From Bradymonadales bacterium (lineage in GTDB: Bacteria > Myxococcota > Bradymonadia > REDH01), in the NCBI GenBank assembly GCA_947483645.1, contig CANKLS010000032.1, forward strand, positions 1 to 16,778: a stretch of 16,778 nucleotides of DNA. Reading direction: 5' to 3'. Position numbers and translations under genes: made by a program. How positions within the stretch are numbered: the first letter of the stretch is position 1; every line of letters starts with the position of its first letter. Positions 1,779 to 16,778 of the stretch are shown in pieces. A model generated the notes under the pieces. The model saw only the letters and a program-made list of their open reading frames with translations. It was not told where the DNA came from and did not search any database.

Positions 1779-1993
1779 GCCTGAGGCTCCGGTGAGGCGG
1801 TCTATGTTGGGCCGCGGGGTTAGTCGGCAGAGGCGTTGGGGGCAAGCGAGATGATGCAGTGCGCCACCAATCGAGAGACGAGGCAGAGAGGCAGCTCTCC
1901 GCGCGCAACGTTCTTGCCTGTCGCCAATGCTTATCGTATGAAGCCGCCGTCTGTTCGGCGCTGCCGGACGCCAGCCTACGCTACGGTGTGTAC

Positions 1994-2488
1994 ATGCTCC
2001 TTCGCCGCCTCACGATCGCCACGGTTTTCGGTCTTACACTCCTCAGCGGCCAGGCTTGGGCAGAGACGGTGAAGAACGACGATTTGAAGGTGTCGATGGA
2101 TCGGCCGGCCGGCTGGAGCAACGCCGATGGCAACGATCGCGCCGTCTTCATGTTCAAGCGTGACGGTGGCCACAGCCAGCTCGAGGTCATCGCCACCCAG
2201 CTGATGACCAGCGATGTCGCCGGCGTCTTCTTCGACACCTTCCACGAGACGCTCGGCGCCTCCGACTTCACCCGCGCGGGCCGCGAAGAGAGGAAGATCG
2301 GCAACATCAGCGGCACCGAGACCGTCTACACCTTCGCCCACGCCGGCGTGAACCTCAAGGTCTACGTCTTCCAGTTCGTCAAAGACACCTCAGCCTACGT
2401 TGTTGTCTCCTACATGGAGACCGAAAAGGCCGACGCGCTCCTCGCTGATTACCAGTCGGCCATCAGTTCGCTGAAGTTCGAAGAGTAA
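1994..2488 (+). CDS. Small secreted protein, possibly DcrB/PsbP-like fold
   Basis: A 164-residue protein of unknown function. The ATG at 1994 is preferred because it places a textbook signal peptide at the N-terminus: MLLRRLT, then a hydrophobic stretch, then a likely cleavage after the A of QAWA before ETVKNDD. The reading frame stays open upstream to a GTG at 1859, but that would bury the signal peptide behind 45 unremarkable residues. No strong ribosome binding site precedes 1994. The mature part (about 140 residues) has short beta-strand-like segments such as [30 protein letters not shown] and SAYVVVSYM, ending in a helix and ISSLKFEE. This pattern resembles DUF1795/DcrB/PsbP-type periplasmic proteins, but that is only a fold impression. 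A weak promoter-like pair (TTGCCT at 1914, TATGAA at 1937, 17-bp spacer) lies upstream. Confidence 0.8.
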
Positions 2489-2490
2489 CC

Positions 2491-2536
2491 GCCCCGCGGT
2501 GCCGAGCCGGGAGGTACCGCCAAATCGCCGCGGGGC
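2491..2536 (+). terminator. Possible hairpin after the secreted-protein gene
   Basis: Nine-base complementary arms, GCCCCGCGG (2491-2499) and CCGCGGGGC (2528-2536), begin two bases after the stop codon of the gene ending at 2488. The loop is long (28 nt) and no T-run follows, so this is not a classic intrinsic terminator. It may end transcription with Rho, protect the 3' end, or be coincidental in GC-rich DNA. Confidence 0.3.
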
Positions 2537-2545
2537 ATCCCGGTA

Positions 2546-2561
2546 ACGGGATCGATCCCGT
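2546..2561. promoter_or_regulatory. 16-bp perfect palindrome upstream of purB
   Basis: ACGGGATCGATCCCGT is a perfect 16-bp palindrome centred about 32 bp before the purB start codon, in the 97-bp gap between the secreted-protein gene and the pur genes. Position and symmetry fit an operator for a dimeric repressor of the purine genes. No match to the known E. coli PurR or Bacillus PurBox sequences is evident, so the role is inferred. Confidence 0.3.
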
Positions 2562-2585
2562 CCGATACGCGACAGGACCCTGCTC

Positions 2586-3890
2586 ATGATCGATAGATAT
2601 GCCCGCCCTGTGATGACTGCCATCTGGGCTGAGCAGGCCAAGCTCGACCGCTGGCTCGCCATCGAGCTCGCTGCCTGTGACGGCTTTGTCGCGCTTGGTC
2701 GCATGCCCGCAGAGACCGTCGCCCGCCTCCGCGCCTGCCTCTCGGTTGACCCGGCCCGCGTCGCCGAGATTGAGGCCATCACCCGCCACGACGTCGCCGC
2801 CTTTGTGCAGAGCCTCGAGGAGCAGTGCGGCCCCGATGATGGCCGCTTCCTCCACATGGGGCTCACCTCCAGCGACATCCTCGACACCACCTTTGCGCTG
2901 CAGCTCCGCGATGCAGGACAGCTCCTGCTCGACGACCTCGATGCGCTCGCGGCTGCCATCGAGCGGCGCGCCTTCGAACACAAGATGACCCCCGTCATCG
3001 GCCGCTCCCACGGCATCCACGCCGAACCCACCTCGCTCGGCCACATCCTCGCCGGCTGGTATGACGAGGTGAAGCGCTGCCGCGCGCGGCTCGTCTCCGC
3101 CATCGCCTCGGTCTCCGTCGGCAAGCTCAGCGGTTCGGTGGGCAACTTCACCCATGTGGAGCCCATCGTCGAAGAGACCGTCTGCGCGACCCTCGGCCTT
3201 GGCTGCGAGCCTGCAGGCACCCAGGTGGTCTCGCGCGACCGCCACGCCGAATACTTCTGCGTGCTGGCGCTCATCGCGAGCAGCCTCGAACGCTTCGCCG
3301 TCACCGTCCGCCACTGGCAGCGCACCGAGCTGATGGAGGCCGAGGAGTTCTTCCACAAGGGCCAGAAGGGCTCCAGCTCCATGCCCCACAAGCGCAACCC
3401 GGTGCTGAGCGAAAATGTCACCGGCCTCTGCCGGCTAGTGCGTGGCTACGCCATCCCCGCCATGGAGAATGTGGCCCTCTGGCACGAGCGCGACATCTCC
3501 CACTCGTCCGTCGAGCGGGTCGCTGCACCAGACGCCACCATCGCGCTCGACTTCGCCCTCCACCGCTTCACCGGCGTCATCGACAAGCTGGTCTTCTACC
3601 CCGAGAAGATGGAGCGCAACCTCGCCCAGACGCGTGGCCTCGTCTTCAGCCAGCGCATCCTCATGGAGCTGCTCTGGTCGGGGCTCGGCCGCGAGGTGGC
3701 CTACCGGCTCGTGCAGCGCATCTCGATGGTGGCCTGGGAGTCGGGCGATGAGCTCATGCCCCTCGCACTCGCCGACGAAGAGCTCCGCAGCCATCTCAGC
3801 CAGGCAGACATCGAGCGCTGCTTCGACCTCGCCCACGGCCTGCGCCATGTCGATGCCATCTTTCAACGCGTCTTCGGACGCACCGCCTAG
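2586..3890 (+). CDS. purB: Adenylosuccinate lyase
   Basis: A 434-residue member of the fumarase/aspartase superfamily. It cleaves SAICAR to AICAR plus fumarate and adenylosuccinate to AMP plus fumarate, two steps of purine synthesis. Visible signatures are TRHDVAAF (about 66-73), [11 protein letters not shown] (92-102), [11 protein letters not shown] (139-149, with the catalytic-region histidine H142) and the superfamily loop [11 protein letters not shown] (262-272), which carries the flexible-loop serine. The length is normal for the bacterial enzyme. The ATG at 2586 is preceded by AGGA at 2574-2577 with 8 nt spacing, and MIDRYARP is a typical start. It leads the purB-purS-purQ-purL cluster; purC, often between purB and purS in Gram-positive clusters, is absent here. 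The frame is intact. Confidence 0.97.
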
Positions 3891-4863: not shown

Positions 4864-7089
4864 GTGAGCCAATCGAAGTCGATGCGCGAGGTCGCGCTCG
4901 AGCACAACCTGACCGATGAAGAGTATGACTTTGCGCTGAGCCGGCTCGGCCGCGAGCCCAACGCCACCGAGATTGGCGTGCTGGGCGCGATGTGGAGCGA
5001 GCACTGCTCCTACAAGTCGAGCCGCGTCCATCTGCGCACGCTGCCCACGACCGGGCCGCAGGTCGTCGTTGGCCCTGGCGAGAATGCCGGCGCCGTCGAC
5101 ATCGGCGACGGCTGGTGCGCCGTCTTCAAGATGGAGTCGCACAACCACCCCTCCTTCATCGAGCCCTACCAGGGCGCAGCGACCGGCGTGGGCGGCATCC
5201 TCCGCGACGTCTTCACCATGGGCGCCCGGCCGGTGGCCTCGCTCAACGCGCTCCGCTTCGGCGCACCCGACCACCCGCGCACCGCCTTCCTCATGAACGG
5301 CGTCATCGGTGGCATCGCAGGCTACGGCAACTGCATGGGCGTGCCAACGGTGGGCGGCGAGGTCTTCTTCGACCCCAGCTACAACGGCAACATCCTCGTC
5401 AACGCCTTCACGGCCGGCATCTGCCGTCACGATGAAATCTTCAAGGGCGTCGCCTCGGGCATCGGCAACCCCATCCTCTACGTGGGTGCCAAGACGGGCC
5501 GCGACGGCATCAACGGCGCCAAGATGGCCTCGGCCGGCTTCTCCAGCGATGGCGACGACCAGCGCCCGACCGTGCAGGTCGGCGACCCCTTCCGCGAGAA
5601 GCTGCTGCTCGAGGCCTGCCTCGAACTCTTCAAGGAAGATGCCGTCATCGGCATCCAAGACATGGGTGCCGCCGGCCTCACCAGCTCGAGCACCGAGATG
5701 GCCGGCCGCGGCGGCTGCGGCGTCTTCATCGACCTCGACCTGGTGCCGACGCGTGAGAGCGCGATGACCGCCTACGAGATGCTCCTCTCCGAGAGCCAGG
5801 AGCGCATGCTCATGGTGGTCAAGGATGGCCGCGAGCATGTGGTCAAGGCCATCTTCGACAAGTGGGACCTCGACAGCGCCGTCATCGGCCGCGTGACCGA
5901 CACCGGCCGCTGGGTGGTCTCCCGCAACGGCGAGATTGCCGCCGACATGCCGGTCGACTTCCTCACCGACGAGGCGCCCGTCTACGACCGCCCCCGTTCG
6001 GAGCCGGCCCGCTTCACCAACCGCAAGCCGCTCGACCGCGCCGCGCTCCCCGCGCTCACCGACGCCGGTTCCACGCTGCTCGCGCTGCTTGGTTCGCCCA
6101 ACATCTGCAGCCGCCGCAGCATCTACGAGCAGTATGACCACATGGTCGGCGCCGGCACCGTGCAGCGGCCCGGCGGCGACGCTGCCGTCGTGCGCATCAC
6201 CGGCACCGACAGGGCCATCGCGCTGGCCGTTGACTGTAACCCCCGCCACGTCTTCCTCGACCCCTACCAGGGGGCAGCCCGCGCCGTCGCCGAGTGCTCC
6301 CGCAACGTGGCCTGCACGGGCGCCCGTCCGCTCGGCCTCACCGACTGCCTCAACTTCGGCAACGTGAAGGACCCCGAAATCATGTGGGAGTTCGCCGAGG
6401 CGGTCCGCGGCATGGGTGTGGCCTGCCGCGCGCTCGATGTGCCCATCGTCTCGGGCAACGTCTCGCTCTACAACGCCACGGGTGGCGCCTCCATCAAGCC
6501 GACACCGTCGGTAGCCGTGGTCGGCTCCTTCGACGGCCCCTTCGATGCCTCCAAGGTGGTCCGCAAACGAGTCTCACAGCCGGGCCTCGAGCTCTGGCTT
6601 GTGGGGCCCCAGGCGGGCACGCTCGACGGCTCCGAGTTCGCGGCGCTGGCCGGTCATGGCGACGAGGGAATGCTCGCGCCAGTCGACCTCGACCTCGAGG
6701 CGCGGCTCCAGAAGCTCCTCATCGCCGGTGCAGACAAACGGCTCTTCGCCGCTGCGCACGACCTCTCCGAAGGCGGCCTCGCGGTCGCCGTCGCGGAGAT
6801 GTTCCTGGGCCAGACCGCAGTGGGCGCAGCGCTCACCGCATCGCTGGAGGGCGACCTTGCCACGGCCCTCTTCCACGAGGGCCCGTCGCGTGTCGTTCTG
6901 GCGGTCTCTGCCGAGAACAGCGCGGCCTTCGTTGCTGCCGCAAAGGCGGCCTCGCTGCCGCTGCTCGCGCTCGGTCAGTCGGTAGCCGGCGACCGGTTCG
7001 ACTGGGCCGGCCTCTTCTCCGTTTCGCTCGCGGAGGCCACGGCCCGCTTCGACGCGGGGCTCGATCCCATCCGGCGCGGCCGCGGCTAG
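4864..7089 (+). CDS. purL: Phosphoribosylformylglycinamidine synthase, synthetase subunit
   Basis: A 741-residue PurL of the small bacterial type that works with PurS and PurQ. It is an ATP-dependent AIRS-superfamily enzyme converting FGAR to FGAM. The N-terminus holds [11 protein letters not shown] (43-53) with the catalytic-region H47, followed by [22 protein letters not shown]. The linker [20 protein letters not shown] and the C-terminal [14 protein letters not shown] (633-646) mark the two AIRS-like halves. The start is taken as GTG at 4864 because GAGG at 4855-4858 sits 5 nt upstream; ATG at 4882 is a possible alternative that shortens it by 6 residues. Its TAG stop (7087-7089) overlaps the stop of the convergent PEGA reading frame. 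Confidence 0.97.
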
Positions 7090-7463
7090 AAGGTGGGGCG
7101 GATGCTGGTGCTGGTGCCAGGCGCCAGCCGCACCGTCTTCTCGAACTTCTTGCCGTAGAACTTCACCTGCACCGTGTGGCTCCCCGCGCTCACGGGGAAG
7201 ATGGCCTTCGGCGATTCGCCAACGGCCTTGCCGTCGATGGCGACCTTGTAGCTGCCGCTGGTGCCGGGGTAGATGATGCGGATGGTGGCCTGACCCCGCG
7301 GCTCCGCGAGGTGGACTCGCGGCGGCGGCGCCTTGGCCGGCTTGGGCTTGGCAGAGGGAGCTTCTGCCGGCGCAGGCGCCAAGGCGGTGCCGCTCGCCTC
7401 CGCAGCCGCGTTCGGCGATGGCGCGGCAACGGGGTCGGGCTGCGGCGTAGGCTCCGCCTTCAC
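7086..7463 (-). CDS. Orphan PEGA-domain tail, duplicate of the kinase C-terminus
   Basis: The last 80 residues, from [10 protein letters not shown] to STSIRPTF, are identical to residues 513-592 of the kinase encoded at 14395-16173. They form a PEGA-like beta domain ([30 protein letters not shown]). The two DNA copies (7082-7329 and 14391-14638) differ at 11 of 248 bases, and all 11 fall at silent third codon positions. In front is an Ala/Pro-rich linker like that of the kinase but divergent. The frame is open upstream to a stop at 7632-7634, yet the only usual start codon is GTG at 7463, with no good ribosome site. There is no kinase domain, signal peptide or membrane segment. It is either a small functional PEGA protein or the surviving 3' end of a lost kinase gene; silent-only divergence argues the frame was long kept under selection. 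Confidence 0.55.
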
Positions 7464-7862: not shown

Positions 7863-10800
7863 ATGTGTGTTGTTTTGCGTCGGTTCGTTCCGACTGTTTG
7901 GGCCGTTCTGCTAGTCTCGACTTGCCTGTCTGCCTGCTCCGACGACGCTGCCCTGACAGTGATAGCTTCAAAGGCGCCGTCTGCATCTCCGGACGGCGGG
8001 CTGGTCGCCCCCGATGCTGCGCTCCTGCTCCCCGATGGCGGGCAGGGCGACGCCTCTGCGGAGGCCGCTGCCGAGCCACTGTCTGGACTGCTGACGCTCG
8101 CGGAGTTCCGCGGCGACGTGACCGCAGACGGCGCGATGGTCATCACGAAGCTTGATCCTGCGGCCTCGTCCGACCCCGCACTCCGTCGGCTGGCGCAGGG
8201 GCTCTGCACCCTCAGCATTGTGCAGGACGGTGTGGCCGGCTCCGGGCCTGCCAACTCGCTCGAGCTCGTGACGGGGAGCACCGGCCTTGATGCCGACTGC
8301 GACGGCTACCTCGCTTCGCCCCTCTTCTGCGGCGCAGTGACGGTTCGGTCGTTTTACACCTCGCCGCAGACGCAGGTCTTTGCCCAGATCCAGTCGCTCG
8401 TGCCCTCCACGGGCTTTGGCGTGCAGAACGGCGACGCGGTCCCCGGCGCCTCGAGCGGCCTCGGCTCGTGGGCATACGGTGACCTCGGCGCCGCCTCGTC
8501 GGCGCCCGCCAACGCGGGTGTGCGCAACTGGGTCTTTGCCCGGTCGGGCGGCAACTTCACCTTCACGGGTCGCGTGGTTGCCAACGTGACGGAGCTCTGC
8601 GACGGCCTCGACAACGACTGCGACGGCGCGACAGACGAAGGGAACGGTTGTCGCACGCAGGGGCAGAGCTGCGCGGCCACGGTGGACTGCAGCGGTGCGC
8701 TGGTTTGCACTGCCAGTGTCTGCTCGCCGGCTGGTTGCCCGAGCGGCCAACATCTCGACGCTGGCGCCTGCGTGAGCGATACGCGCGCCTGCTCCATCAC
8801 CAACGGGACCGGCAGCCAGAGCTACGCCTCGGGCAGCTGGTCGGCCTGTGGCATCGTGAGCTGCAGCAACGGCTACCACGTGGAGAGCGGCGCCTGCGCG
8901 AACGATGTTCGGAGCTGCTCGCCGCTCCCTTCGAACGCCACAGTAGCGACAGAGACGTGGACCGGCGCCACCTATGGCGCCTGCACAGCGTCGGCCTGCC
9001 TGCCCGCCTATCATGTGGAGGGTGGCGAGTGCCTGTCGAACATCGGCTCTTGCTCGGTGACGAATGGTAGCGGAACCCGCACCTACAACGCCGGCGAGTG
9101 GAGCAGCTGCACGCTCACGGGCTGCAACGCCGGCTACCATGTACAGAGTGGCGCCTGTGAGCTCGACACGCGGAGCTGCACCCTTGCCGACGGCACGGGC
9201 AGCCAGTCCTGGCTCGGTTCGGCATGGAGCGACTGCACGCCTACGAGCTGCGATACGGGCTACCATGTGGAGAGCGGCGCCTGCGCGAGCGATGCGCGCA
9301 ACTGCCTGCTGACGGGCGGCGCCGGCAATCAGACCTGGAACGGCAACAGCTGGAACGGTTGCGTGGCCAGCGCCTGTTACGGCGCATTCAGTCTCTATGA
9401 CGGCACCTGCGTGCCGGCCGGCTGCGGCAACAGCGTGGTAGAGGCCGGCGAGGCCTGCGACGACGGCAACCTGGTGGCGACCGACGGCTGCACGGCCGCC
9501 TGCGCGGTGGCCGCCTGCGGCGACGGCCAGGTGCAGGCGGGGGTAGAGGGCTGCGACGACGGCAACACGCTGACGGAGGAGTGCAACTATGGCGCGGCCT
9601 CATGCACCGTCTGCAACGCGACCTGCACCAGCGCGGCCGGAGAGACCGACCTCTGCGGCGACGGCATCCTCGACGCAGCGGAGGTCTGCGATGACGGCAA
9701 CACGGTGGACGACGATAGCTGCGCCAACAGCTGCCTCTGCGGCACCGGCTACCATGTGGAGAGCGGCGCCTGCTTGAGCAACACCCGCAGCTGCTCGTCG
9801 AGCAACGCGACCATCGCCTTCGAGAGCTGGACCGGCAGCGCCTACGGCCTCTGCACCGCGACGGCTTGCGATGTGAACTACCACCTGGAGGGTGGCGCCT
9901 GCGCGAGCAACACGCGAGCCTGCTCCGTCGCCAACGCGACCACTGCGACGCAGAGCTGGACGGGCAGCGACTACACCGTCTGTGCGGCGACCGGCTGCGC
10001 TGCGGGTTACAGCCTGCTCGCCGGTGCCTGCGTGGCGGCGGGCTGCGGCAACAGCGTGGTGGAGGCTGGCGAGGCCTGCGATGATGGCAACACGGTCGCC
10101 ACCGACGGTTGCACCGCGACCTGCACCGTGGCCGCCTGTGGCGACGGTGTGGTGCAGGCTGGCGTGGATGGCTGCGACGACGGCAACACGGTGACGGAGG
10201 AGTGCGCCTACGGCGAGGCCTCCTGCGCAGTCTGCACCGCAACCTGCGCAATTGCTGCGGGCGAGACCGACATCTGCGGCGACGGCATCCTCGACACCGT
10301 TGAGGTCTGCGACGACGGTAACAGCGTCAACGGCGATAGCTGCAGCAATGGCTGCGTCTGCGGCACCGGCTTCCACCTCGAGGGGGGCGCTTGCACGAGC
10401 GACACGCGGAGCTGCCTGCTGGCCAACGGCACCGGCACCGAGCAATGGAACGGCAGCTCCTACGGCAGCACCTGCAGCGTTGCGACCTGCAACAGCGGCT
10501 ACCACGTTGCGGCCAACAGCTGCGCGGCCGATGTGGTGAGCTGCACGCTCGCCAACGCCTCCGCCGCCACCCAGACCTGGAACAGCGGCAGCAGCAGCTA
10601 CGGCAGCTGCACTGCGAGCGCCTGCGACGCCACCTATCACGTGGAGAGCGGCGCCTGCGCGGCGAATGTACGGGTCTGTACGCTGGCCAACGGCACAGCC
10701 ACGGAGACCTGGGACAGCGGCACCAGCAGCTACGGGAGCTGCACGCCTGGGGTTTGCAACTCGGGCTATCACGTGGAGTCAGGGGCCTGCCTGAGCGACA

Positions 10801-11879
10801 CCCGCAGCTGCTCTCCGCTGCCTGCCAACACCACGGCCGGCACGCAGACTTGGAACAGCGGCACCAGCAGCTACGGCAGCTGCACTGCGACGACCTGCAG
10901 TTCCGGTTATACTGTCAGCGCAGGCACCTGCGTCGTCTCGGTATACTCCCTCGGTACAGGCTGCACGCTGAATTCTCAGTGCGCCTCCGGCTTCTGTGCC
11001 ACCGGGCCGACGGGAACGGCCAACGACCGGTGCGCGCCTACCGGCATGAACTACATCCCTGCCGGCACCTTCACGATGGGTTCGCCCGCAACCGAGGTGG
11101 GCCGCTTTACCAGTGAGACGGAGCACAGCGTGACCATCTCGCGCAGTTTCTTCATGGGTCAGACAGAGGTGACGCAGGGGCAGTGGAAGGCGCTCTCCGG
11201 CGGGACCAATCCGTCCTACTTCCAGTCCACCACCGGCACGGGTTCGAGCACTGCCAACGCAAACGACAGCGGCCCTGCGGAGCAAATGGATTGGTATGCT
11301 GCAGTCGCCTTTGCCAACGCCCGCTCTGCGGCAGAGGGGCTCACCTCCTGCTACACGCTCTCCGGTTGCACCGACGCCACCGACGGCTGGAAGGACGGTA
11401 TCCACAGCGGCTGCACGGGGGCCACCTTCTCGGGCCTCACCTGCACGGGCTACCGGCTGCCCACAGAGAGCGAGTGGGAGTATGCGGCGCGTGGCGGCAC
11501 AACCACGGCCGCCTACCTGGGCAACCTGAGCGGTTCTGTCACAGATTGCACCACAGCACAGGCCAATCTGGACGGCATCGCCTGGTGGTGCATGAACAGT
11601 GGCTCTCGCACCAACGCGGTTGGCGGTAAGACTGCAAACAGCTTTGGCCTCTCCGACATGCTGGGCAATGTGTGGGAATGGACGGGTGACTGGTATGCCA
11701 ACTACCCTGCTGGCTCGGTGACCGACCCGCTCGGCGCCGGCACAGGCTCCGCCCGGGTGGGTCGCGGCGGGTCGTGGGCCAGCCGCGCCCGCAACGCGCG
11801 GGCCGCGTCTCGCTACGACGCCCCGCCGGTCTTTCGCTACAACGCCCTCGGCTTTCGCCTCTCCAGGACCGCACCGTAG
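7863..11879 (+). CDS. DGR target: variable lipoprotein with Cys-rich stalk and C-terminal FGE/C-type-lectin domain
   Basis: A 1338-residue surface lipoprotein. The ATG at 7863 follows AGGAGG (7853-7858). A signal peptide ends in the lipobox LSAC (C25 lipidated, S at +2). Residues 26-240 contain an Ala/Asp-rich linker and an unrecognised domain. A CDGLDNDCDG metal-binding-type motif lies at about 246-255. Residues 295-1013 hold eleven imperfect repeats of about 42-47 residues (GYHVESGAC, SDTRSC, QTWNG, YGSCTA), interrupted by two blocks of DUF4215/myxobacterial Cys-rich repeats (CGN or CGDG then EACDDGN). Residues 1062-1335 form an FGE-sulfatase fold: IPAGTFTMGS, TEVTQGQW, YRLPTESEWEYAARGG, MLGNVWEW and LGFRL. 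Its last 41 codons are the variable repeat. The cysteines needed for formylglycine-generating activity are absent in that segment, so it is read as a ligand-binding domain. The ligand is unknown. Confidence 0.93.
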   Translation: MCVVLRRFVPTVWAVLLVSTCLSACSDDAALTVIASKAPSASPDGGLVAPDAALLLPDGGQGDASAEAAAEPLSGLLTLAEFRGDVTADGAMVITKLDPAASSDPALRRLAQGLCTLSIVQDGVAGSGPANSLELVTGSTGLDADCDGYLASPLFCGAVTVRSFYTSPQTQVFAQIQSLVPSTGFGVQNGDAVPGASSGLGSWAYGDLGAASSAPANAGVRNWVFARSGGNFTFTGRVVANVTELCDGLDNDCDGATDEGNGCRTQGQSCAATVDCSGALVCTASVCSPAGCPSGQHLDAGACVSDTRACSITNGTGSQSYASGSWSACGIVSCSNGYHVESGACANDVRSCSPLPSNATVATETWTGATYGACTASACLPAYHVEGGECLSNIGSCSVTNGSGTRTYNAGEWSSCTLTGCNAGYHVQSGACELDTRSCTLADGTGSQSWLGSAWSDCTPTSCDTGYHVESGACASDARNCLLTGGAGNQTWNGNSWNGCVASACYGAFSLYDGTCVPAGCGNSVVEAGEACDDGNLVATDGCTAACAVAACGDGQVQAGVEGCDDGNTLTEECNYGAASCTVCNATCTSAAGETDLCGDGILDAAEVCDDGNTVDDDSCANSCLCGTGYHVESGACLSNTRSCSSSNATIAFESWTGSAYGLCTATACDVNYHLEGGACASNTRACSVANATTATQSWTGSDYTVCAATGCAAGYSLLAGACVAAGCGNSVVEAGEACDDGNTVATDGCTATCTVAACGDGVVQAGVDGCDDGNTVTEECAYGEASCAVCTATCAIAAGETDICGDGILDTVEVCDDGNSVNGDSCSNGCVCGTGFHLEGGACTSDTRSCLLANGTGTEQWNGSSYGSTCSVATCNSGYHVAANSCAADVVSCTLANASAATQTWNSGSSSYGSCTASACDATYHVESGACAANVRVCTLANGTATETWDSGTSSYGSCTPGVCNSGYHVESGACLSDTRSCSPLPANTTAGTQTWNSGTSSYGSCTATTCSSGYTVSAGTCVVSVYSLGTGCTLNSQCASGFCATGPTGTANDRCAPTGMNYIPAGTFTMGSPATEVGRFTSETEHSVTISRSFFMGQTEVTQGQWKALSGGTNPSYFQSTTGTGSSTANANDSGPAEQMDWYAAVAFANARSAAEGLTSCYTLSGCTDATDGWKDGIHSGCTGATFSGLTCTGYRLPTESEWEYAARGGTTTAAYLGNLSGSVTDCTTAQANLDGIAWWCMNSGSRTNAVGGKTANSFGLSDMLGNVWEWTGDWYANYPAGSVTDPLGAGTGSARVGRGGSWASRARNARAASRYDAPPVFRYNALGFRLSRTAP
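8745..10904 (+). repeat. Coding repeats of the cysteine-rich stalk
   Basis: Eleven imperfect repeats of about 126-141 bp encode units that begin with a GYHVESGAC-like segment. Two DUF4215-type blocks sit within the array, beginning at 9423 and 10044. The blocks are 621 bp (207 residues) apart, and each is followed by two of the short units, so a whole supermodule appears to have been duplicated in tandem. Regular cysteines, about six per short unit, suggest a disulfide-stiffened stalk. Recombination between copies could change the stalk length. Confidence 0.85.
11743..11866 (+). repeat. DGR variable repeat (VR)
   Basis: This 124-bp segment at the 3' end of the lipoprotein gene aligns without gaps to the TR at 13992-14115. 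Twenty positions differ: 11751, 11752, 11760, 11761, 11778, 11779, 11782, 11784, 11785, 11808, 11809, 11814, 11817, 11823, 11830, 11832, 11833, 11838, 11844 and 11845. At all of them the TR has A and the VR has G (8), C (6) or T (6). In the target frame, 13 of 15 adenine-bearing TR codons are changed, for example N to A, G, S, R, Y, D or F, T to P and D to V. The last 21 bp (11846-11866) are identical to the TR, as expected for the initiation-of-mutagenic-homing end. Confidence 0.97.
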
Positions 11880-11888
11880 GGGCGGTGC
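11871..11888 (+). promoter_or_regulatory. Hairpin immediately after the VR (homing-associated)
   Basis: GCACCG (11871-11876) pairs with CGGTGC (11883-11888) around a 6-nt loop, TAGGGG, that contains the target stop codon. It begins 4 nt after the VR end. A DNA hairpin/cruciform a few bases downstream of the VR promotes retrohoming in the Bordetella phage BPP-1 DGR. The position here matches that pattern, although this stem is shorter (6 bp). No comparable hairpin directly follows the TR. Confidence 0.6.
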
Positions 11889-11891
11889 AGT

Positions 11892-11922
11892 GAACCCTTG
11901 ACCCTTGAACCATTGAACCCTT
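11892..11922 (+). repeat. Short tandem octamer repeat
   Basis: Four tandem copies of a GAACCCTT-like unit: GAACCCTT, GACCCTT, GAACCATT and GAACCCTT. They lie directly after the post-VR hairpin. They could be slippage-prone or a protein-binding array; no function is evident from sequence. Confidence 0.6.
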
Positions 11923-11945
11923 GTCAACGGGCCTTCGGTAGCGCA

Positions 11946-11989
11946 GCCCCCACGGAAAGGCCCAGCGAAGCGCGGGCCCCGTGGAGGGC
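11946..11989 (+). other. Long bulged stem-loop between VR and HRDC gene
   Basis: Fifteen base pairs in three helices: GCCC with GGGC, CCACGG (11950-11955) with CCGTGG (11979-11984), and GGCCC (11959-11963) with GGGCC (11974-11978). There is an AAA bulge on one side, a single A on the other and a 10-nt apical loop. It sits in the 272-bp gap between the target and the accessory operon. It could be an RNA element, an attenuator or a terminator without a T-run. The covarying shape is predicted by eye only. Confidence 0.45.
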
Positions 11990-12043
11990 GGAGCGGAGTG
12001 GAGCGTAGCCGTGCAGAGGAGCAAGCGCAGCGGCCGGGCGGGG

Positions 12044-12064
12044 TCCGGGGCGGTCAGCCCCGGA
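12044..12064 (+). other. Perfect 8-bp hairpin upstream of HRDC gene
   Basis: TCCGGGGC (12044-12051) and GCCCCGGA (12057-12064) pair perfectly around the loop GGTCA. No T-tract follows. Together with the stem at 11946-11989 it makes the 5' region of the accessory operon strongly structured. It may reduce read-through from the target gene or be part of a regulatory RNA. Confidence 0.45.
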
Positions 12065-12137
12065 AGCGGAGAAATCAGCCAGATTGCCTCAATCGATTCA
12101 TCGCGGGCAAAGCCTCTCGGCGCGTCTTGTTTGCCAT

Positions 12138-12147
12138 AAAGGAGGAG
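12138..12147 (+). promoter_or_regulatory. Strong ribosome binding site of HRDC accessory gene
   Basis: AAAGGAGGAG, containing a full AGGAGG (12140-12145) 6 nt before the ATG at 12152. It is a near-perfect anti-16S match and fixes the start codon. Confidence 0.85.
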
Positions 12148-12151
12148 AGCC

Positions 12152-12631
12152 ATGAGGCTTGCTGTGATCACGCTAGGTGTGGGCCCTGATGGTGCCTTCG
12201 AAGATCAGCAATTGCGCGACTTCTGCTCGACGCACGATGTGGTGACCTTTTCGGAGCATCGCTTTGTCTGGCAGGGTGAGCCGCGCTGGTCGTTCATGCT
12301 GCAGTGGCGACCTCTGAGCGGAAGCAGCTCTGTTCGGTTGGAGCTTCAGCAGCGGGTCGCCGAACAACAGGAGTTGAAGGCCGAGCTTACGCAGGAGGAG
12401 CGCGCGCTGTTCGAGCGGCTGCGAGAATGGCGGAATGCGACGATGAAGGCGTCGGGTCGGCCGTCCTTTGTCATGTTCAGCAACCGTCAGCTCGTGGACC
12501 TGGTTCGCACCCGTCCTGAAACGCTGTCGGGCCTCCGCGAAATCCAGGGGATTGGCGAACAGAAAGCGGAGCAGTTCGGCGTTGCGTTGCTAGAATTACT
12601 GCGCTCGCCCGTGGTGGAGGAGATGTCGTGA
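12152..12631 (+). CDS. DGR accessory protein with HRDC domain
   Basis: A 159-residue protein. Residues 1-60 (MRLAVITLGVG, then FCSTHDVVTFSEHRFVW) form a small domain rich in beta-like segments that I cannot name. Residues 61-80 are a charged helix. Residues about 84-151 are a clear HRDC domain (helicase and RNase D C-terminal type): LFERLREWRNATMKASGRPS, SNRQLVDLV, PETLSGLREIQGIGEQKAEQFG. HRDC domains bind nucleic acid in RecQ and RNase D. HRDC-containing accessory ORFs are known from some DGRs, where they may assist the RT-RNA complex. The start is set by the strong ribosome site at 12138-12147. Its TGA overlaps the GTG of the next gene (GTGA, 12628-12631), so translation is coupled. No helicase or nuclease catalytic domain is attached. 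Confidence 0.85.
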   Translation: MRLAVITLGVGPDGAFEDQQLRDFCSTHDVVTFSEHRFVWQGEPRWSFMLQWRPLSGSSSVRLELQQRVAEQQELKAELTQEERALFERLREWRNATMKASGRPSFVMFSNRQLVDLVRTRPETLSGLREIQGIGEQKAEQFGVALLELLRSPVVEEMS

Positions 12632-12981
12632 GCGGTCCCGATTTGCCATTGGTGCAGCTAGCATGGGAGCATGCGATGGGGGTGCTGTTTGACAAGAGCA
12701 GCCAGTTTCCCAAAGTGCTCCGGCATACGCTTACGAACCGGATAGAGTTGACGTCGCTCGATGTACTGGAACATTTGATAGAGGCTCGGTTCGCGACGGG
12801 GTCGGTGCGGCGTGTGGCGCTCCAGCGTGCCGATCGGCGGCTTGCGCAGTTGCGGGCGTTGGTTCGGTTTGCGCACGCGCGCCACGCCCTCGACCACCGT
12901 GGATTGGAGCAGGTTTCGGTGGCACTGGACGAGTCTGGCCGGCAGATTGGCGGTTGGCTGAAGCACGAGGCGAGCGCTTGA
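12628..12981 (+). CDS. avd: Avd-like DGR accessory protein (four-helix bundle)
   Basis: A 117-residue, wholly helical, basic protein: LAWEHAMGVLFDKSSQFPKVLRHT, DVLEHLIEARFATG, ALQRADRRLAQLRALVRFAHARHAL and LEQVSVALDESGRQIGGWLKHE. Size, helix pattern and position just before the reverse transcriptase match Avd, the pentameric four-helix-bundle protein that binds DGR RT and TR RNA and is required for mutagenic retrohoming in BPP-1. The phrases KVLRHTLTNRI and LDESGRQIGGWLK fit the family (bacterial Avd/four-helix-bundle, 23S rRNA IVS-like). The start is GTG at 12628, with GGAGGAG (12616-12622) 5 nt upstream and overlapping the HRDC stop. Its own TGA overlaps the TTG start of the RT. Family assignment is from pattern and context, not alignment. 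Confidence 0.85.
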   Translation: MSGPDLPLVQLAWEHAMGVLFDKSSQFPKVLRHTLTNRIELTSLDVLEHLIEARFATGSVRRVALQRADRRLAQLRALVRFAHARHALDHRGLEQVSVALDESGRQIGGWLKHEASA

Positions 12982-14009
12982 ACAACACAGACTTTCGGAG
13001 TTTCGGTGCGCTCCTGAAGGCATGCGAGTCTGCCCAGCGGGGTTCGGGTGACTCTCGGGAGGCGGCAGCGTTTTTGGTCGAGCGTGAGCAACAGATTCTC
13101 GCGCTGCACAGGCGGCTTTTGAGCGGAGGTTGGCAACCTGGCGGGTTTCGGACCTTCGTGATTCGTGAGCCGAAGCGGCGCGTCATTAGTGCAGCCCCCT
13201 TCGGCGATCGGGTTGTGCATCATGCCGTATGCGCGCAGCTCGAGCCGATGTTCGACCGTCGCAGCAGTCCAATCAGCTTTGCCTGTCGGAAGGGGCGCGG
13301 CACGGTGGCTGCACTTCGGCGCGCCCGTGAGCTCGCGCGCCGATTTCAGTGGTATCTGAAGTTGGATGTCGAGCACTACTTTGAGACCCTGCCTCACGCA
13401 GGTCTGCTGAAGCGGCTCTCGGAGGTGGTGGAGGATGCAGAGGCGTTCGCAATCTGTGAGCGCATCGTCCGCTTCGGGGCTCCCGGCTCTCAGCCGGGTC
13501 ATGGAGTTCCGATTGGGAACCTGACCAGCCAGCACTTCTCGAACGACTACCTGTCACAGCTTGATCATCATCTGATGCGTTCACTCCGGGTTCCGGCTGC
13601 ACTTCGGTATATGGACGACATCCTCATTTTCTCGGATGACCCCTCTGAACTTCGGGCTTGCCGAGCAGAACTTCAGGGTTGGGTTGGGGTTCGGCTGGGG
13701 CTTCGTCTCAAGCCGAGCGCTGAGCGGCTTGCTCCAGTATTGAGCGGCGTACCATTCTTGGGCTTTCGCATCTGGCCATCGCACATCCGTTTGGACGGAG
13801 CTCGGCGGACTCGACTTGCTCGGCGGCTACGGACCACGCTCGCGGCGCTTGATCGCGGCTCGCTTTGTGAGCATGATGCCGCTGCATGTCTGCAAAGTGT
13901 TTGTGCTTGGAGTGACCTAGGCGGTGCCGTACGGTTCCGGCAGTCAGTCCTGGCCAGATACGAACAGACAGGCGCTAGGCCAATCGACGAGCAGGCTCCA
14001 ACCGGGTGA
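12978..14009 (+). CDS. DGR-type reverse transcriptase
   Basis: A 343-residue reverse transcriptase that would copy the TR RNA with adenine-specific errors. Motifs in order: [17 protein letters not shown] (68-84), [10 protein letters not shown] (100-109), [12 protein letters not shown] (128-139, catalytic D130), [22 protein letters not shown] (176-197, the IGNLTSQ signature of DGR RTs), RYMDDILIF (210-218, D213 and D214), [10 protein letters not shown] and FLGFRIWP (thumb-proximal). There is no maturase, RNase H or integrase domain. The chosen start is TTG at 12978: GAGG at 12967-12970 is 7 nt upstream and TTGA overlaps the avd stop. A TTG at 12954 would add 8 residues. The stop (14007-14009) lies inside the TR, so the last codons double as template sequence. 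Confidence 0.95.
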
Positions 14010-14115
14010 ATCGCGGCGGGTCGTGGAACAACAACGCCCGCAACGCGCGGGCCGCGAATCGCAACAACGCCACGCCGGACAATCGCAACAACAACCTCGG
14101 CTTTCGCCTCTCCAG
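13992..14115 (+). repeat. DGR template repeat (TR)
   Basis: A 124-bp invariant template aligned to VR 11743-11866 at a constant offset of 2249. It holds 30 adenines, 20 of which differ in the VR. Read in the VR frame it contains twelve AAC and AAT codons at varied sites plus ACG and GAC, which can mutate to many residues but never to a stop. It begins inside the RT gene, whose last six codons and stop lie within it, and ends at CTCTCCAG (14108-14115). An apparent open frame from GTG 14006 through the TR is a by-product of its origin from target coding sequence. Confidence 0.96.
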
Positions 14116-14190
14116 CACACGGGCCGCCCGATACTGCAGCGGTCAAGGTCGCTCCGTCAGTGCCACCGTGTCCATGTCGATTCGGCCCGC

Positions 14191-14212
14191 GTTGCAGTGA
14201 GGTAACTGCAAC
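14191..14212 (+). other. 8-bp hairpin downstream of TR
   Basis: GTTGCAGT (14191-14198) and ACTGCAAC (14205-14212) pair perfectly around the loop GAGGTA, starting 76 nt after the TR. The low-GC stem stands out from the surroundings. It is probably part of the DGR RNA fold. Confidence 0.5.
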
Positions 14213-14224
14213 CAAAGAAGCCAA

Positions 14225-14253
14225 GCCCCGCAGCCGCGATCCCGCTGCGGGGC
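14225..14253 (+). terminator. 10-bp GC-rich hairpin, possible DGR RNA 3' end
   Basis: GCCCCGCAGC (14225-14234) and GCTGCGGGGC (14244-14253) are perfect 10-bp arms around a 9-nt loop. There is no T-run after it, so termination is unproven. It may cap the TR-containing transcript or form part of its required structure. It is the strongest simple hairpin in the window. Confidence 0.5.
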
Positions 14254-14390
14254 GCTACGCCTCGGGCCCTGTGATCGGGTCGGCGAGCCGTCCACAGTCT
14301 TCATGGTTCGGCACCAACCTCACGGACCGGACGCGCGAGGGTGAGCTGTTCGTCGAGGGCGGCGGTGGTGTCGACCTCTGGTTCGCGGCT

Positions 14391-14638
14391 GCGGCTAGAA
14401 GGTGGGGCGGATGCTGGTGCTGGTGCCCGGCGCCAGCCGCACCGTCTTCTCGAACTTCTTGCCGTAGAACTTCACCTGCACCGTGTGGCTCCCCGCGCTC
14501 ACGGGGAAGATGGCCTTTGGTGATTCGCCAACGGCCTTGCCGTCGATGGCAACCTTGTAGCTTCCGCTGGTGCCCGGGTAGATGATGCGGATGGTGGCTT
14601 GGCCCCGCGGCTCGGCGAGGTGCACCCGCGGCGGCGGC
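14391..14638 (-). repeat. PEGA-coding direct repeat, right copy (left copy 7082-7329)
   Basis: The 248-bp segment encoding the last 80 kinase residues and stop matches 7082-7329 in the same orientation, with 11 substitutions, all silent. The repeats start four bases before the CTA that encodes the stop and end where the Ala/Pro-rich linkers diverge. They flank the whole DGR cassette. Confidence 0.95.
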
Positions 14639-16173
14639 CGCTTGTCGGCCTTGGGCGTGGGTGTGGGCGTAGGATCTAACGCTGCGCTACCGCTCGCCTC
14701 GCCAGCGCCTACGGCCTGCGCGGGTGTTGGGTCAGCGACCGCAGGAGCGGGGGAAGGTTGCGGCTCAGTTGCTGGCGCCGCCTCCGCCACGACCTCGGCC
14801 TGTGGCGCAGCCGGCGGCGCGGGCGCCTCACTCCGCATGAGCCACCAGCCGCCTGCAAGCAGCGCAGCGATGGCCACGCCCACCCAGAGCTTCGATCCAG
14901 ACTTCGGCGCAGCCGCTTCCATGGTCGGCTCCGGCGCGGGCGCAGGGGGCGAGGCGAGCCACCCGTTGCCGGGCAGCGGGCGCGCAGGTGATGATGGGTC
15001 TGGCGTGATGACCGCGTGGGCGGCGTGCGATGCGGCCTGAATGTCCGGGGAGTTGAGCGCCGTGGCCGCAGAGAGGCCAAGCGCCGGTGCTGCGCCAAGC
15101 GCGACCGCCGTTCTGGCAACGGGCTGTTCTGGCGCAGACGCCTGCGCTGCGCCTGCCCAGGGCCCCTCGGTGGCCGTCTTGAGTCGGGTCGAACTCACGG
15201 CGTCGACGTCGCCGAGCAGCGTGGGGCCGCCGCCTGTGGGCGCTGCGGGGCGCTCCGAGAAGAGGCCGGTGAGGAAGTCTGCGAGATCGCGCTGCGTGAC
15301 CAGCTGCTGCTGCTCCTTGAGCCACAGTTCGAGCGCCCGCTCCATCTCTGCCACGCTCTGAAAACGGTCCTGCGCCTTCTTCGCCAGCGCCCTGGCAATA
15401 ATCTCGTCGAGCCCCGCGGGCAGGTCGGCCCGAAAGCTCGACATGGGCTGGTGAGGCTCGTTGAGGATCGCAGAGATGGCCAGCAGCTCGCTCTCGCCGC
15501 CAAACGGGCGCTCGCCCGTCAGCAGCTCGTAGAGCACGATGCCCATGGCGAAGATGTCGCTCCGGCCGTCGAGCACCTTGGCGTGAATCTGCTCCGGCGA
15601 CAGGTAGGCCAGCTTGCCTTTCACCATGCCCGTCTGCGTCTTGTGGACGCTCGAGGCGGCCTTTGCGACGCCAAAATCCACCAGCTTCACCACGCCGATG
15701 CGCGAGATGAGGAGGTTGTGGGGGCTGATGTCCCGGTGCACCAGGCCCACCCGGTTGCCCTCCCGGTCCACAAAGTTGTGGGCGTAGTCGAGCCCCGCAC
15801 AGGCGTCGGCGACGATGCGGACGGCGATGTGGGCGGGGATGGAGAGGCCGCGCGTCTTGGCCCGCACAATGAGCCGGCTCAGGTCGTAGCCCTCGATGAA
15901 CTCCATCGCGATGAAGTAGCTGTCGCCGTCCTGACCGAGGTTGAAGATGGAGACGATGTGGGGGTGGCTCAGCGAGGCCGCCAGCCGCGCCTCATCCAAG
16001 AACATCTCCACAAAGCGCGCGTCGTTCGCGAAGTGCGGCAGGATGCGCTTGATGACCACATCCTTCTGGAAGCCCGCGGGCCCCTGCGTGGTCGCCAGCC
16101 AGATCTCGGCCATGCCGCCAACAGCCAGCTGGCGCTGCAACACATACTGACCAATTGTCGCGCCTGCTTCCAT
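14395..16173 (-). CDS. Membrane Ser/Thr protein kinase with C-terminal PEGA domain
   Basis: A 592-residue eukaryotic-type (Hanks) kinase that phosphorylates unknown cytoplasmic substrates. Glycine-rich loop LAVGGMAEIW (16-25), ATP-site K42 in VVIKRI, catalytic HRDISPHN (147-153, D149 and N153), DFG (167-169) and LSPEQ (191-195) are all intact, so it should be active. An Ala/Pro-rich linker (about 306-425) leads to one membrane segment (LWVGVAIAALLAGGWWL, about 429-445). The outer part is another Pro/Ala-rich linker and a PEGA-like domain (517-592), which probably senses or anchors in the envelope. The ATG at 16173 has GAGGGA shortly upstream. It lies 21 bp after the stop of the unrecognised upstream gene, so the two may be cotranscribed. 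The 3' end is duplicated at 7082-7329. Confidence 0.93.
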   Translation of the reverse strand: MEAGATIGQYVLQRQLAVGGMAEIWLATTQGPAGFQKDVVIKRILPHFANDARFVEMFLDEARLAASLSHPHIVSIFNLGQDGDSYFIAMEFIEGYDLSRLIVRAKTRGLSIPAHIAVRIVADACAGLDYAHNFVDREGNRVGLVHRDISPHNLLISRIGVVKLVDFGVAKAASSVHKTQTGMVKGKLAYLSPEQIHAKVLDGRSDIFAMGIVLYELLTGERPFGGESELLAISAILNEPHQPMSSFRADLPAGLDEIIARALAKKAQDRFQSVAEMERALELWLKEQQQLVTQRDLADFLTGLFSERPAAPTGGGPTLLGDVDAVSSTRLKTATEGPWAGAAQASAPEQPVARTAVALGAAPALGLSAATALNSPDIQAASHAAHAVITPDPSSPARPLPGNGWLASPPAPAPEPTMEAAAPKSGSKLWVGVAIAALLAGGWWLMRSEAPAPPAAPQAEVVAEAAPATEPQPSPAPAVADPTPAQAVGAGEASGSAALDPTPTPTPKADKRPPPRVHLAEPRGQATIRIIYPGTSGSYKVAIDGKAVGESPKAIFPVSAGSHTVQVKFYGKKFEKTVRLAPGTSTSIRPTF

Positions 16174-16194: not shown

Positions 16195-16778
16195 CTACTC
16201 TGAGACGGTCTGCGGACGGAAGCAAAAGAAGCGGTCGAGGTGGTCTTTGGCGCTGATGCGGAACTCCACATCGGCCTGCTTGCCAGCCCAGGTTGGCGTG
16301 GGGATGACCGTCTCGGGGTAGCCGAGCTGATGCGGCGCGTAGGTTGTCGCAAAGACCCGCTTGCCGTCAACCATCGCCTCGATGGCCACCTCGCTGCCGC
16401 GCGGCAGCCGGTGGGCGTAGTAGGTGTTGCCCGCCTTGAAGCGGAGCTGCTTGCCCATCGTCACGCTCGGCCAGCGGATGGACCAGGCGGTCTGTCCGGG
16501 CAGACCGTTGGCGGCGATGCACTCGCGGAAGGAGTCGTCCATCTCGCGGAAGGCCGGGCCCACGAAGAGGTAGGGGTCGGTGCGGCCACACTGCCAGGCG
16601 TTGGCATCCCAGCGGTCGCAGCGGACGGCGGCCCCCTTGGGCGGCAGCTTCTCCACGACGGCGTCGCGTATGGCGGTGTAGCCGTCCCAGTGCACCGTCT
16701 CCGCCTGCTGGATGGTGCCCACCTCCACCCGGTAGTGGCCGGCGTCGAAGCGGGTCTTGGTGCCGGCGCCCAGCCAGG
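16195..16778 (-). CDS. Unrecognised protein, C-terminal part (cut by window edge)
   Basis: The frame is open to the window edge, giving at least 194 residues with the start outside; the visible part begins WLGAGTKTRFDAGHYRVEVG. I do not recognise the family. Features include paired cysteines in RCDRWDANAWQCGRTDPY, further cysteines in FRECIAANG and FFCFRPQ, and many beta-like stretches (QLRFKAGNTYYAHRL, EVAIEAMVDGKRVFATTY, DVEFRISAKDHLDRFF). The composition could suit an exported beta-rich domain, but no signal peptide can be judged. It is 21 bp upstream of the kinase gene on the same strand. A GTG at 16728 could serve as an internal start but is not preferred. Confidence 0.7.
   Translation of the reverse strand, partial: WLGAGTKTRFDAGHYRVEVGTIQQAETVHWDGYTAIRDAVVEKLPPKGAAVRCDRWDANAWQCGRTDPYLFVGPAFREMDDSFRECIAANGLPGQTAWSIRWPSVTMGKQLRFKAGNTYYAHRLPRGSEVAIEAMVDGKRVFATTYAPHQLGYPETVIPTPTWAGKQADVEFRISAKDHLDRFFCFRPQTVSE

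Follow-up and report, generated by a model that had tools for sequence, protein, structure and literature searches.

The 16,778-nucleotide stretch of DNA analysed here (hereafter the window) raises three linked questions: whether the reverse transcriptase (RT) gene and the repeats found in it constitute a complete diversity-generating retroelement (DGR); which protein such an element would diversify; and whether it is still at work. We consider it highly probable (roughly 95%) that the locus is a DGR, in which an RT, likely helped by Avd and an HRDC protein, rewrites the variable repeat (VR) of a predicted FGE-fold lipoprotein from a template repeat (TR). The TR would be transcribed and copied by the RT with random bases placed opposite adenines, with Avd and the HRDC protein likely in assisting roles, and the resulting cDNA would then replace the VR in the 3'-terminal part of the predicted FGE-fold lipoprotein gene. 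One TR would probably serve several targets.

Organization of the locus

The window contains the following features:

7863..11879, + strand: target gene, 1338 aa, a predicted lipoprotein with a C-terminal FGE-sulfatase domain ending in the VR
11743..11869, + strand: VR, aligning to the TR without gaps
11846..11869, + strand: IMH-like 3' end of the VR, identical to the TR except for C (TR) / G (VR) at 11867
11871..11888, + strand: possible hairpin GCACCG-TAGGGG-CGGTGC with the target stop codon inside its loop; weak
11880..12065, + strand: non-coding 3' flank of the target, common to other target genes of the genus
11895-11923, + strand: four-unit CCCTTGA-like array inside this flank
12152..12631, + strand: HRDC-domain accessory gene, 159 aa (PF00570, E 2e-18)
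12628..12981, + strand: avd, 117 aa (PF22296; PHROG Avd of DGR), with a 4-base overlap with the HRDC gene
12978..14009, + strand: DGR RT, 343 aa from TTG 12978, with YMDD and IGNLTSQ
13992..14118, + strand: TR; its start overlaps the RT gene's 3' end, stop codon included
14191-14212 and 14226-14252, + strand: two perfect 8-bp stems 3' of the TR
7075..7358, - strand: copy of the 3' end of a kinase gene, left of the DGR, with 263 of 284 bases as at 14384-14667
14384..14667, - strand: 3' end of the Ser/Thr kinase gene right of the DGR (whole gene 14395-16173)

The order on the + strand is thus target with VR, HRDC gene, avd, RT gene and TR. The HRDC, avd and RT genes overlap head to tail, all four DGR genes are open and closely packed, and the TR starts within the last codons of the RT gene (stop codon at 14007-14009). 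The TTG start at 12978 gives an RT of 343 aa, as long as the database protein P0001 that matches it; upstream of this TTG the frame stays open back to 12954. A single VR is present in the window, and the element lies in a chromosomal-looking place between purL and the kinase gene. The first-pass annotation had named each of these parts (target with VR, HRDC gene, avd-like gene, RT and TR) in this order on one strand, together with the IGNLTSQ and YMDD motifs of the RT, and all of them are confirmed. What the window holds is an intact and well-preserved DGR of a cellular genome, equipped with HRDC and avd alike; it is an ordinary representative of a known kind of element.

The template and variable repeats

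The TR and VR can be aligned without a gap along 127 bases, the offset being 2249 throughout. They differ at 20 of the 31 TR adenines and at 1 of the 96 other bases (one-sided Fisher p = 1.6e-14), the adenine being replaced in the VR by G eight times and by C and T six times each. The lone non-adenine mismatch is a C in the TR and a G in the VR at 11867/14116. A scripted search for A-biased repeats listed this as the sole pair in the window. The adenine-specific character claimed earlier for the pair stands, but the ends then given to it (11866/14115) were short by three bases: the repeat reaches 11869/14118, and the sole non-adenine mismatch falls in the added bases. The IMH-like 3' end, whose function is predicted, carries G at the C/G position (11867) in all three diversified relatives as well (see below). 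With the VR ending at 11869 and the target stop codon at 11879, the VR occupies the 3' end of the target gene.

Eighteen VR codons contain a TR adenine, and 13 of these are AAY in the TR; no outcome of adenine substitution in the VR can create a stop codon. About 5e17 different proteins could arise in this way; without the two codons that fall in the IMH-like end, the figure is about 3e16 (the first divided by 16). The two 8-bp stems that follow the TR possibly form the end of the template RNA. A structured template RNA, by comparison, finds little support, since the folding of the TR with its flank is little better than that of shuffled sequences (z -1.45) and no Rfam match was recovered in the window.

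Diversified and frozen variable repeats in related genomes

The genome nearest to the window, G001, has 35% of sampled words in common with it, and G001-G004 are four genomes of the nearest genus. An RT of the kind seen in the window, avd, the HRDC gene and a TR were found in none of these four genomes (77-93% complete); three of them have a weak PF00078 match, which phmmer with the window RT does not report. VR-like domains, however, are present in all four. A search of the four genomes with the TR yielded 15 matches, and at the adenines none of these resembles the TR.

Comparisons of VRs were made on TR columns 1-105. Relative to the TR, the window VR differs at 20/29 adenine columns and 0/76 others; the domains on contigs C7 and C145 of G001 each differ at 14/28 and 3/75; and that on C212 of G002 differs at 20/29 and 4/76. 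Two further domains are less clean: C41 of G003 (19/29 adenine columns, 7/76 others) and C157a of G004 (19/28, 8/75). Compared pairwise, the window VR, the two from G001 and the one from G002 differ at 18-21 of 28-29 adenine columns versus 3-6 of 75-76 others, with p <= 3e-10 for each of the six pairs. Three other cross-species domain pairs are frozen: they differ at 0/27 adenine columns with 0/69 others, 0/29 with 6/76 and 1/26 with 1/69. The six members of these frozen pairs depart from the TR at 10-14 of 69-76 non-adenine columns, as against 0/76 for the window VR in the same columns. Judged from these alignments, the genus has both diversified and frozen versions of the variable domain. 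Variation at TR adenines, the hallmark looked for across relatives, is seen in two other genomes of the genus (G001, G002), with hardly any change at other columns, and concerns paralogs rather than alleles of this gene.

For the domain on C7 of G001, the upstream part of the gene is 47-78% identical to that of the window in six bins of <=100 bases, rising to 86/97 in the last bin. In the VR, 93/96 non-adenine columns (40/41 at third codon positions) are alike versus 12/31 adenine columns. The upstream region is thus far more diverged than the non-adenine columns of the VR, a pattern to be expected after retrohoming from a shared TR; conservation also covers the final 97 upstream bases and the 3' flank, however, so that a longer block may have been converted. 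For C145 of G001, similarity to the 3' flank of the window drops to 19/30 and then 18/47 past the VR. Contig C212 of G001 ends within the flank that elsewhere follows a VR. The VRs of the genus cannot be tied to a TR of their own, because no core or TR was found in the four genomes; the missing core may have been lost or may be unassembled. Taken together, the relatives suggest a core cassette that is gained and lost (or missed in assembly) while diversified targets remain. Precedents are known from other DGRs: T. denticola isolates without the core retain targets differing from the TR mostly at adenines (PMC4891356), and remote VRs and a multi-FGE target ORF have already been described (PMC3521204). 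The genus offers a natural experiment, with diversified and frozen variable domains side by side in assemblies without the core, and makes two questions testable: whether targets persist after their retroelement has gone, and what DNA signal singles out a target for homing.

The same data bear on whether the element in the window still operates. It might be a DGR by descent that is now inactive, with intact frames and a VR that is the frozen product of past homing; this alternative shares the identification as a DGR and disputes present activity only, so that its odds overlap with those of the preferred reading. The frozen targets of the genus (0/27, 0/29 and 1/26 adenine differences across species) and the core cassette missing from all four assemblies speak for it, but we regard it as unlikely: the four genes of the window are open and tightly packed, and a long-dead element would gather changes at all positions, whereas the VR has only 1/96 non-adenine differences, and the diversified VRs of the two other genomes are clean too (3-6 of 75-76). 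The element in the window is presumably active at present.

A second alternative, that the TR and VR are ordinary drifted paralogous FGE fragments whose A-bias stems from variable asparagine-rich sites, is very improbable. The family is indeed large (119 stretches in G001 match the target), and its frozen members also differ from the TR more at adenine columns (e.g. C149 of G001, 16/26 vs 13/69). Yet the drift that frozen-pair members show at non-adenine columns is wholly lacking in the window VR (10-14 of 69-76 versus 0/76), the adenines are replaced by all three bases (8 G, 6 C, 6 T), and the TR is no gene of its own: it follows a DGR RT accompanied by avd.

The reverse transcriptase

The RT matches the Pfam family RVT_1. 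Its best solved relative, at 154 bits versus 57 for the next, is chain A of 8ub7, which we take to be the RT of the Bordetella phage BPP-1 DGR; the same entry also contains Avd. In a 47-row tree, 37 rows including the window RT are split with support 100/100 from ten others, namely five annotated group II RTs, one phage RT annotated as 'retron-type' and four RTs of genomes G005 and G006. The tree took 15 of at least 120 RT protein matches listed, and its sampling of other RT classes is limited (a single phage RT annotated retron-type; CRISPR and UG rows are absent); L032 and the loci L052-L054, which gave no match to the RT, were omitted. All 16 tree rows with an A-biased pair at their own locus (L029 and L030 being near-identical) fall on the 37-row side: these comprise 14 of the 18 genome-contig loci, Bordetella phage BMP-1 and plasmid pPAES01. 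In the four remaining genome-contig loci (L016, L027, L028, L032), the script found no A-biased TR/VR pair. IGNLTSQ, as IGxxxSQ, is invariant in all 38 aligned rows, the window included, and the SQ motif is described as a mark of DGR RTs in PMC3521204. The phylogeny thus places the window RT with RTs that have A-biased TR/VR loci and away from group II RTs, and by this measure the RT is of DGR ancestry. That it belongs to another system (group II intron, CRISPR or UG/DRT defence) and sits beside the repeats by chance is barely credible: generic libraries do rate it as an RT of group II or UG/DRT-like type (106.8 bits for NCBIfam group II, against a cut-off of 300; PADLOC RT 132 bits), but the tree separates it from the group II rows (100/100), it has the IGNLTSQ motif, the TR overlaps its stop codon and avd overlaps its start.

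Accessory genes

The avd product scores 52.4 bits against Pfam bAvd (above the cut-off of 40) and E 3e-17 against PHROG Avd; it reaches 68.1 bits against NCBIfam Avd, below the cut-off of 80, and its matches to BPP-1 Avd in the PDB are insignificant (E 0.07 and 0.4). On these profile scores the avd call is real but remote. Besides the Pfam HRDC domain, the HRDC protein matches the RecQ-type tail of DpdF and RecQ models; a PHROG match is absent.

Among the 18 genome-contig loci with a related RT, phmmer with the window proteins (E <= 0.01), which could miss divergent genes, detects the HRDC gene and avd together in two; eight gave HRDC without avd, five avd without HRDC, and three no match to either. 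The two with both, L015 and L016, are the two rows labelled Myxococcota in the tree; plasmid pPAES01 likewise has both. The four double-accessory loci lie in one 19-row clade (100/97), which adjoins seven HRDC-only rows from Bacteroidota/Treponema, although the fork uniting these two clades has support of 84/82 only. This topology suggests one gain of HRDC in an avd-bearing lineage, followed by loss of avd in the HRDC-only sister clade.

Three loci (L026, L027 and L028) depart from the usual order in that their avd match is located downstream of the RT and on the opposite strand; L026 has its A-biased pair on that strand as well.

The target protein and its variable domain

The target has a lipobox-like LSAC at its N-terminus, read by eye, on which the prediction of a lipoprotein is based; this is followed by cysteine-rich myxo_disulf/DUF4215 repeats (PF13948; TIGR02232) and a C-terminal FGE-sulfatase domain of the C-type-lectin type (PF03781, E 4e-43). 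The nearest solved relative of the variable domain is TvpA of Treponema denticola (2y3c; sequence E 1e-36, profile E 1e-71), which is also the top Foldseek match of the target-domain model (E 4e-14, TM 0.67), a search made with the first structure model and not the better second one. The structure alignment (A2) covered loci with an FGE target, minus L018, whose target is on the other strand. Since the VR stretch is of low confidence in both structure models, the proposed position of the variable residues at the protein surface rests on the alignment to TvpA and on PMC6328139. The variable codons align where TvpA-type proteins have their ligand site, and a changed binding surface is therefore the likely output of diversification. 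The protein itself would be located at the cell surface. The earlier proposal of a DGR that rewrites the tip of a surface lipoprotein by adenine-specific hypermutation draws support from the RT tree, the VRs of the genus and a predicted lipoprotein with a TvpA-like tip; activity and surface location are its presumptive elements.

Proteins of this build are numerous in G001, which has a very large family of FGE/cysteine-rich repeat lipoprotein-like proteins, with 119 stretches matching the target. One of its contigs (C2; locus L012) has a 2804-aa frame with four FGE domains, each related to the tip of the target; the first and last of these are unchanged in G003 at TR-adenine columns. PMC3521204 describes a Marichromatium frame with three FGE domains as highly unusual.

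The neighbourhood of the DGR and the host

The Ser/Thr kinase gene has its 3' end in two copies, one to each side of the DGR (263/284 bases alike). In G003 and G004, purL is followed on the contig by a fragment of the kinase tail that corresponds to part of the left copy, and there is no DGR match; about 1 kb farther along, beyond another ORF, similarity to the window begins again at 14309. In G001 (L011, contig C185) the end of purL is followed by a 385-aa ORF at 1923-3080, presumably an Rpn-like recombination-promoting nuclease, and then by the kinase; in G002 the kinase stretch is without a match. As the neighbourhoods differ between the genomes of the genus, the DGR sits at a spot of variable content. 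The idea that the kinase-tail repeats (7075-7358 and 14384-14667) are the insertion ends of the DGR is weakened, since the left copy is partly present behind purL, without any DGR match, on contigs of G003 and G004. The 385-aa ORF at the place of the DGR in G001 has EGRQEG repeats.

The first-pass annotation had described the surroundings as free of phage genes and the host as myxobacterium-like. The former is consistent with our reading of the 16.8 kb, in which the family search of flanking ORFs covered the kinase, the kinase-tail ORF and 16198-16776, and a homology search covered purL. As to the host, the top matches of purL are at 97, 96 and 71% identity; the named ones, among the matches listed (at least 120), are at 54-59%, mostly from Bradymonadaceae/Persicimonas, Myxococcaceae, Anaeromyxobacter and Deltaproteobacteria. 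The RT clade includes the Myxococcota-labelled L015 and L016. Both purL and the RT clade point to a likely affinity with Myxococcota, a placement at the level of phylum and nothing finer.

Candidate signals in the 3' flank of the target

The BPP-1 DGR needs a hairpin after its VR. In the window, the hairpin following the VR has a 6-bp stem, equalled in 13 of 500 shuffles, and is perfect in two of the four diversified VRs. BMP-1, used as a positive control, has a strong 8-bp hairpin in this place (0/500 shuffles as good). A hairpin as homing mark is thus weak here, whereas the BMP-1 control stands out. With a cruder script a stem of >=7 was detected in only 1 of 71 viral TR/VR loci; either the absence of a hairpin may mean little, or the VR ends were misplaced there.

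A second candidate is the four-unit CCCTTGA-like array. Five places, distributed over three of the four genomes of the genus, match the 186 bases past the target stop: four directly after the end of an FGE/VR gene and one at the end of contig C212 of G001. The 13-mer CCCTTGACCCTTG occurs five times in six genomes, at these same five flank places, and its reversed control not at all; within the six genomes searched, target-gene ends are the only places where the array is found, with one of the matches situated where a contig stops. In the distant myxococcal DGR L015, four CCCTTGA-like units start 7 bases past the last base of the VR (L015 1954 onwards), the only cluster of >=3 units in 965 kb of genome-contig and viral DGR loci. 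The array was singled out after looking at L015, and the genus copies are homologous and count once.

As a general feature of DGRs the array fails: none of 71 viral loci with a TR/VR pair has a CCCTTGA array (80 examined, the best 80 of at least 577 confirmed). Nor does it act as a switch between diversified and frozen states, C145 of G001 being diversified without an array and the frozen last domains of G001 C2 and G003 C211 having one. A pattern scan of viral contigs (80 loci from at least 120 stretches) gave eight with period-7/8 CCNTTG arrays, and tblastn with the window RT has no match at E <= 1e-10 in those 80 loci; such arrays therefore arise elsewhere as simple repeats.

One might still propose that in the HRDC+Avd branch of DGRs an array of about four CCCTTGA units behind the target stop, rather than a strong hairpin, marks the VR end as a portable homing aid that travels with new targets, so that one TR diversifies dispersed lipoproteins. 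We hold this to be a long shot, in view of the post hoc notice, the exception of C145, the frozen pair with an array, the homologous copies and the viral arrays without this RT. The array would in any case be no strict requirement, given that it is missing after one diversified VR and present in one frozen pair. It is the one candidate novelty, and a weak one, with an inconsistent link to diversification.

Comparison with known systems

The DGR of the Bordetella phages BPP-1/BMP-1 shares with the window the RT and the A-biased TR/VR pair; it differs in having a phage target and a strong 8-bp hairpin, as opposed to the weak 6-bp hairpin here. Closer in its target are the DGRs of Treponema denticola, typified by TvpA (2Y3C), which likewise have lipoprotein targets, an HRDC accessory gene and remote targets. 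In PMC4891356, where the word avd does not occur, this HRDC gene overlaps the RT gene and lies between the TR and the RT, whereas in the window the TR follows the RT. The presence of avd at 12628-12981 sets the window apart from this HRDC-only type.

Both accessory genes are present in two further systems. L015, from the uncultured Myxococcales bacterium ErkenSummer_bin-0937, has the same FGE-HRDC-avd-RT-TR arrangement, an RT 48% identical to that of the window, its own TR/VR pair differing at 22/29 adenines and 0/94 others, and the array just after the VR; no stem in the 45 bases after this VR beats shuffles. The Prosthecochloris aestuarii plasmid pPAES01 (NC_011061) has the same order of FGE target, HRDC, avd and RT on one strand, with the TR after the RT, and its RT, 43.5% identical to the window RT, belongs to the same 19-row clade. 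It is a conjugative plasmid with a second FGE target downstream, whereas the window is chromosomal-looking and has one VR. To these the window adds a cellular DGR with HRDC and avd from a likely myxobacterial lineage, the added value of which lies in the related genomes and in the tentative lead provided by the array.
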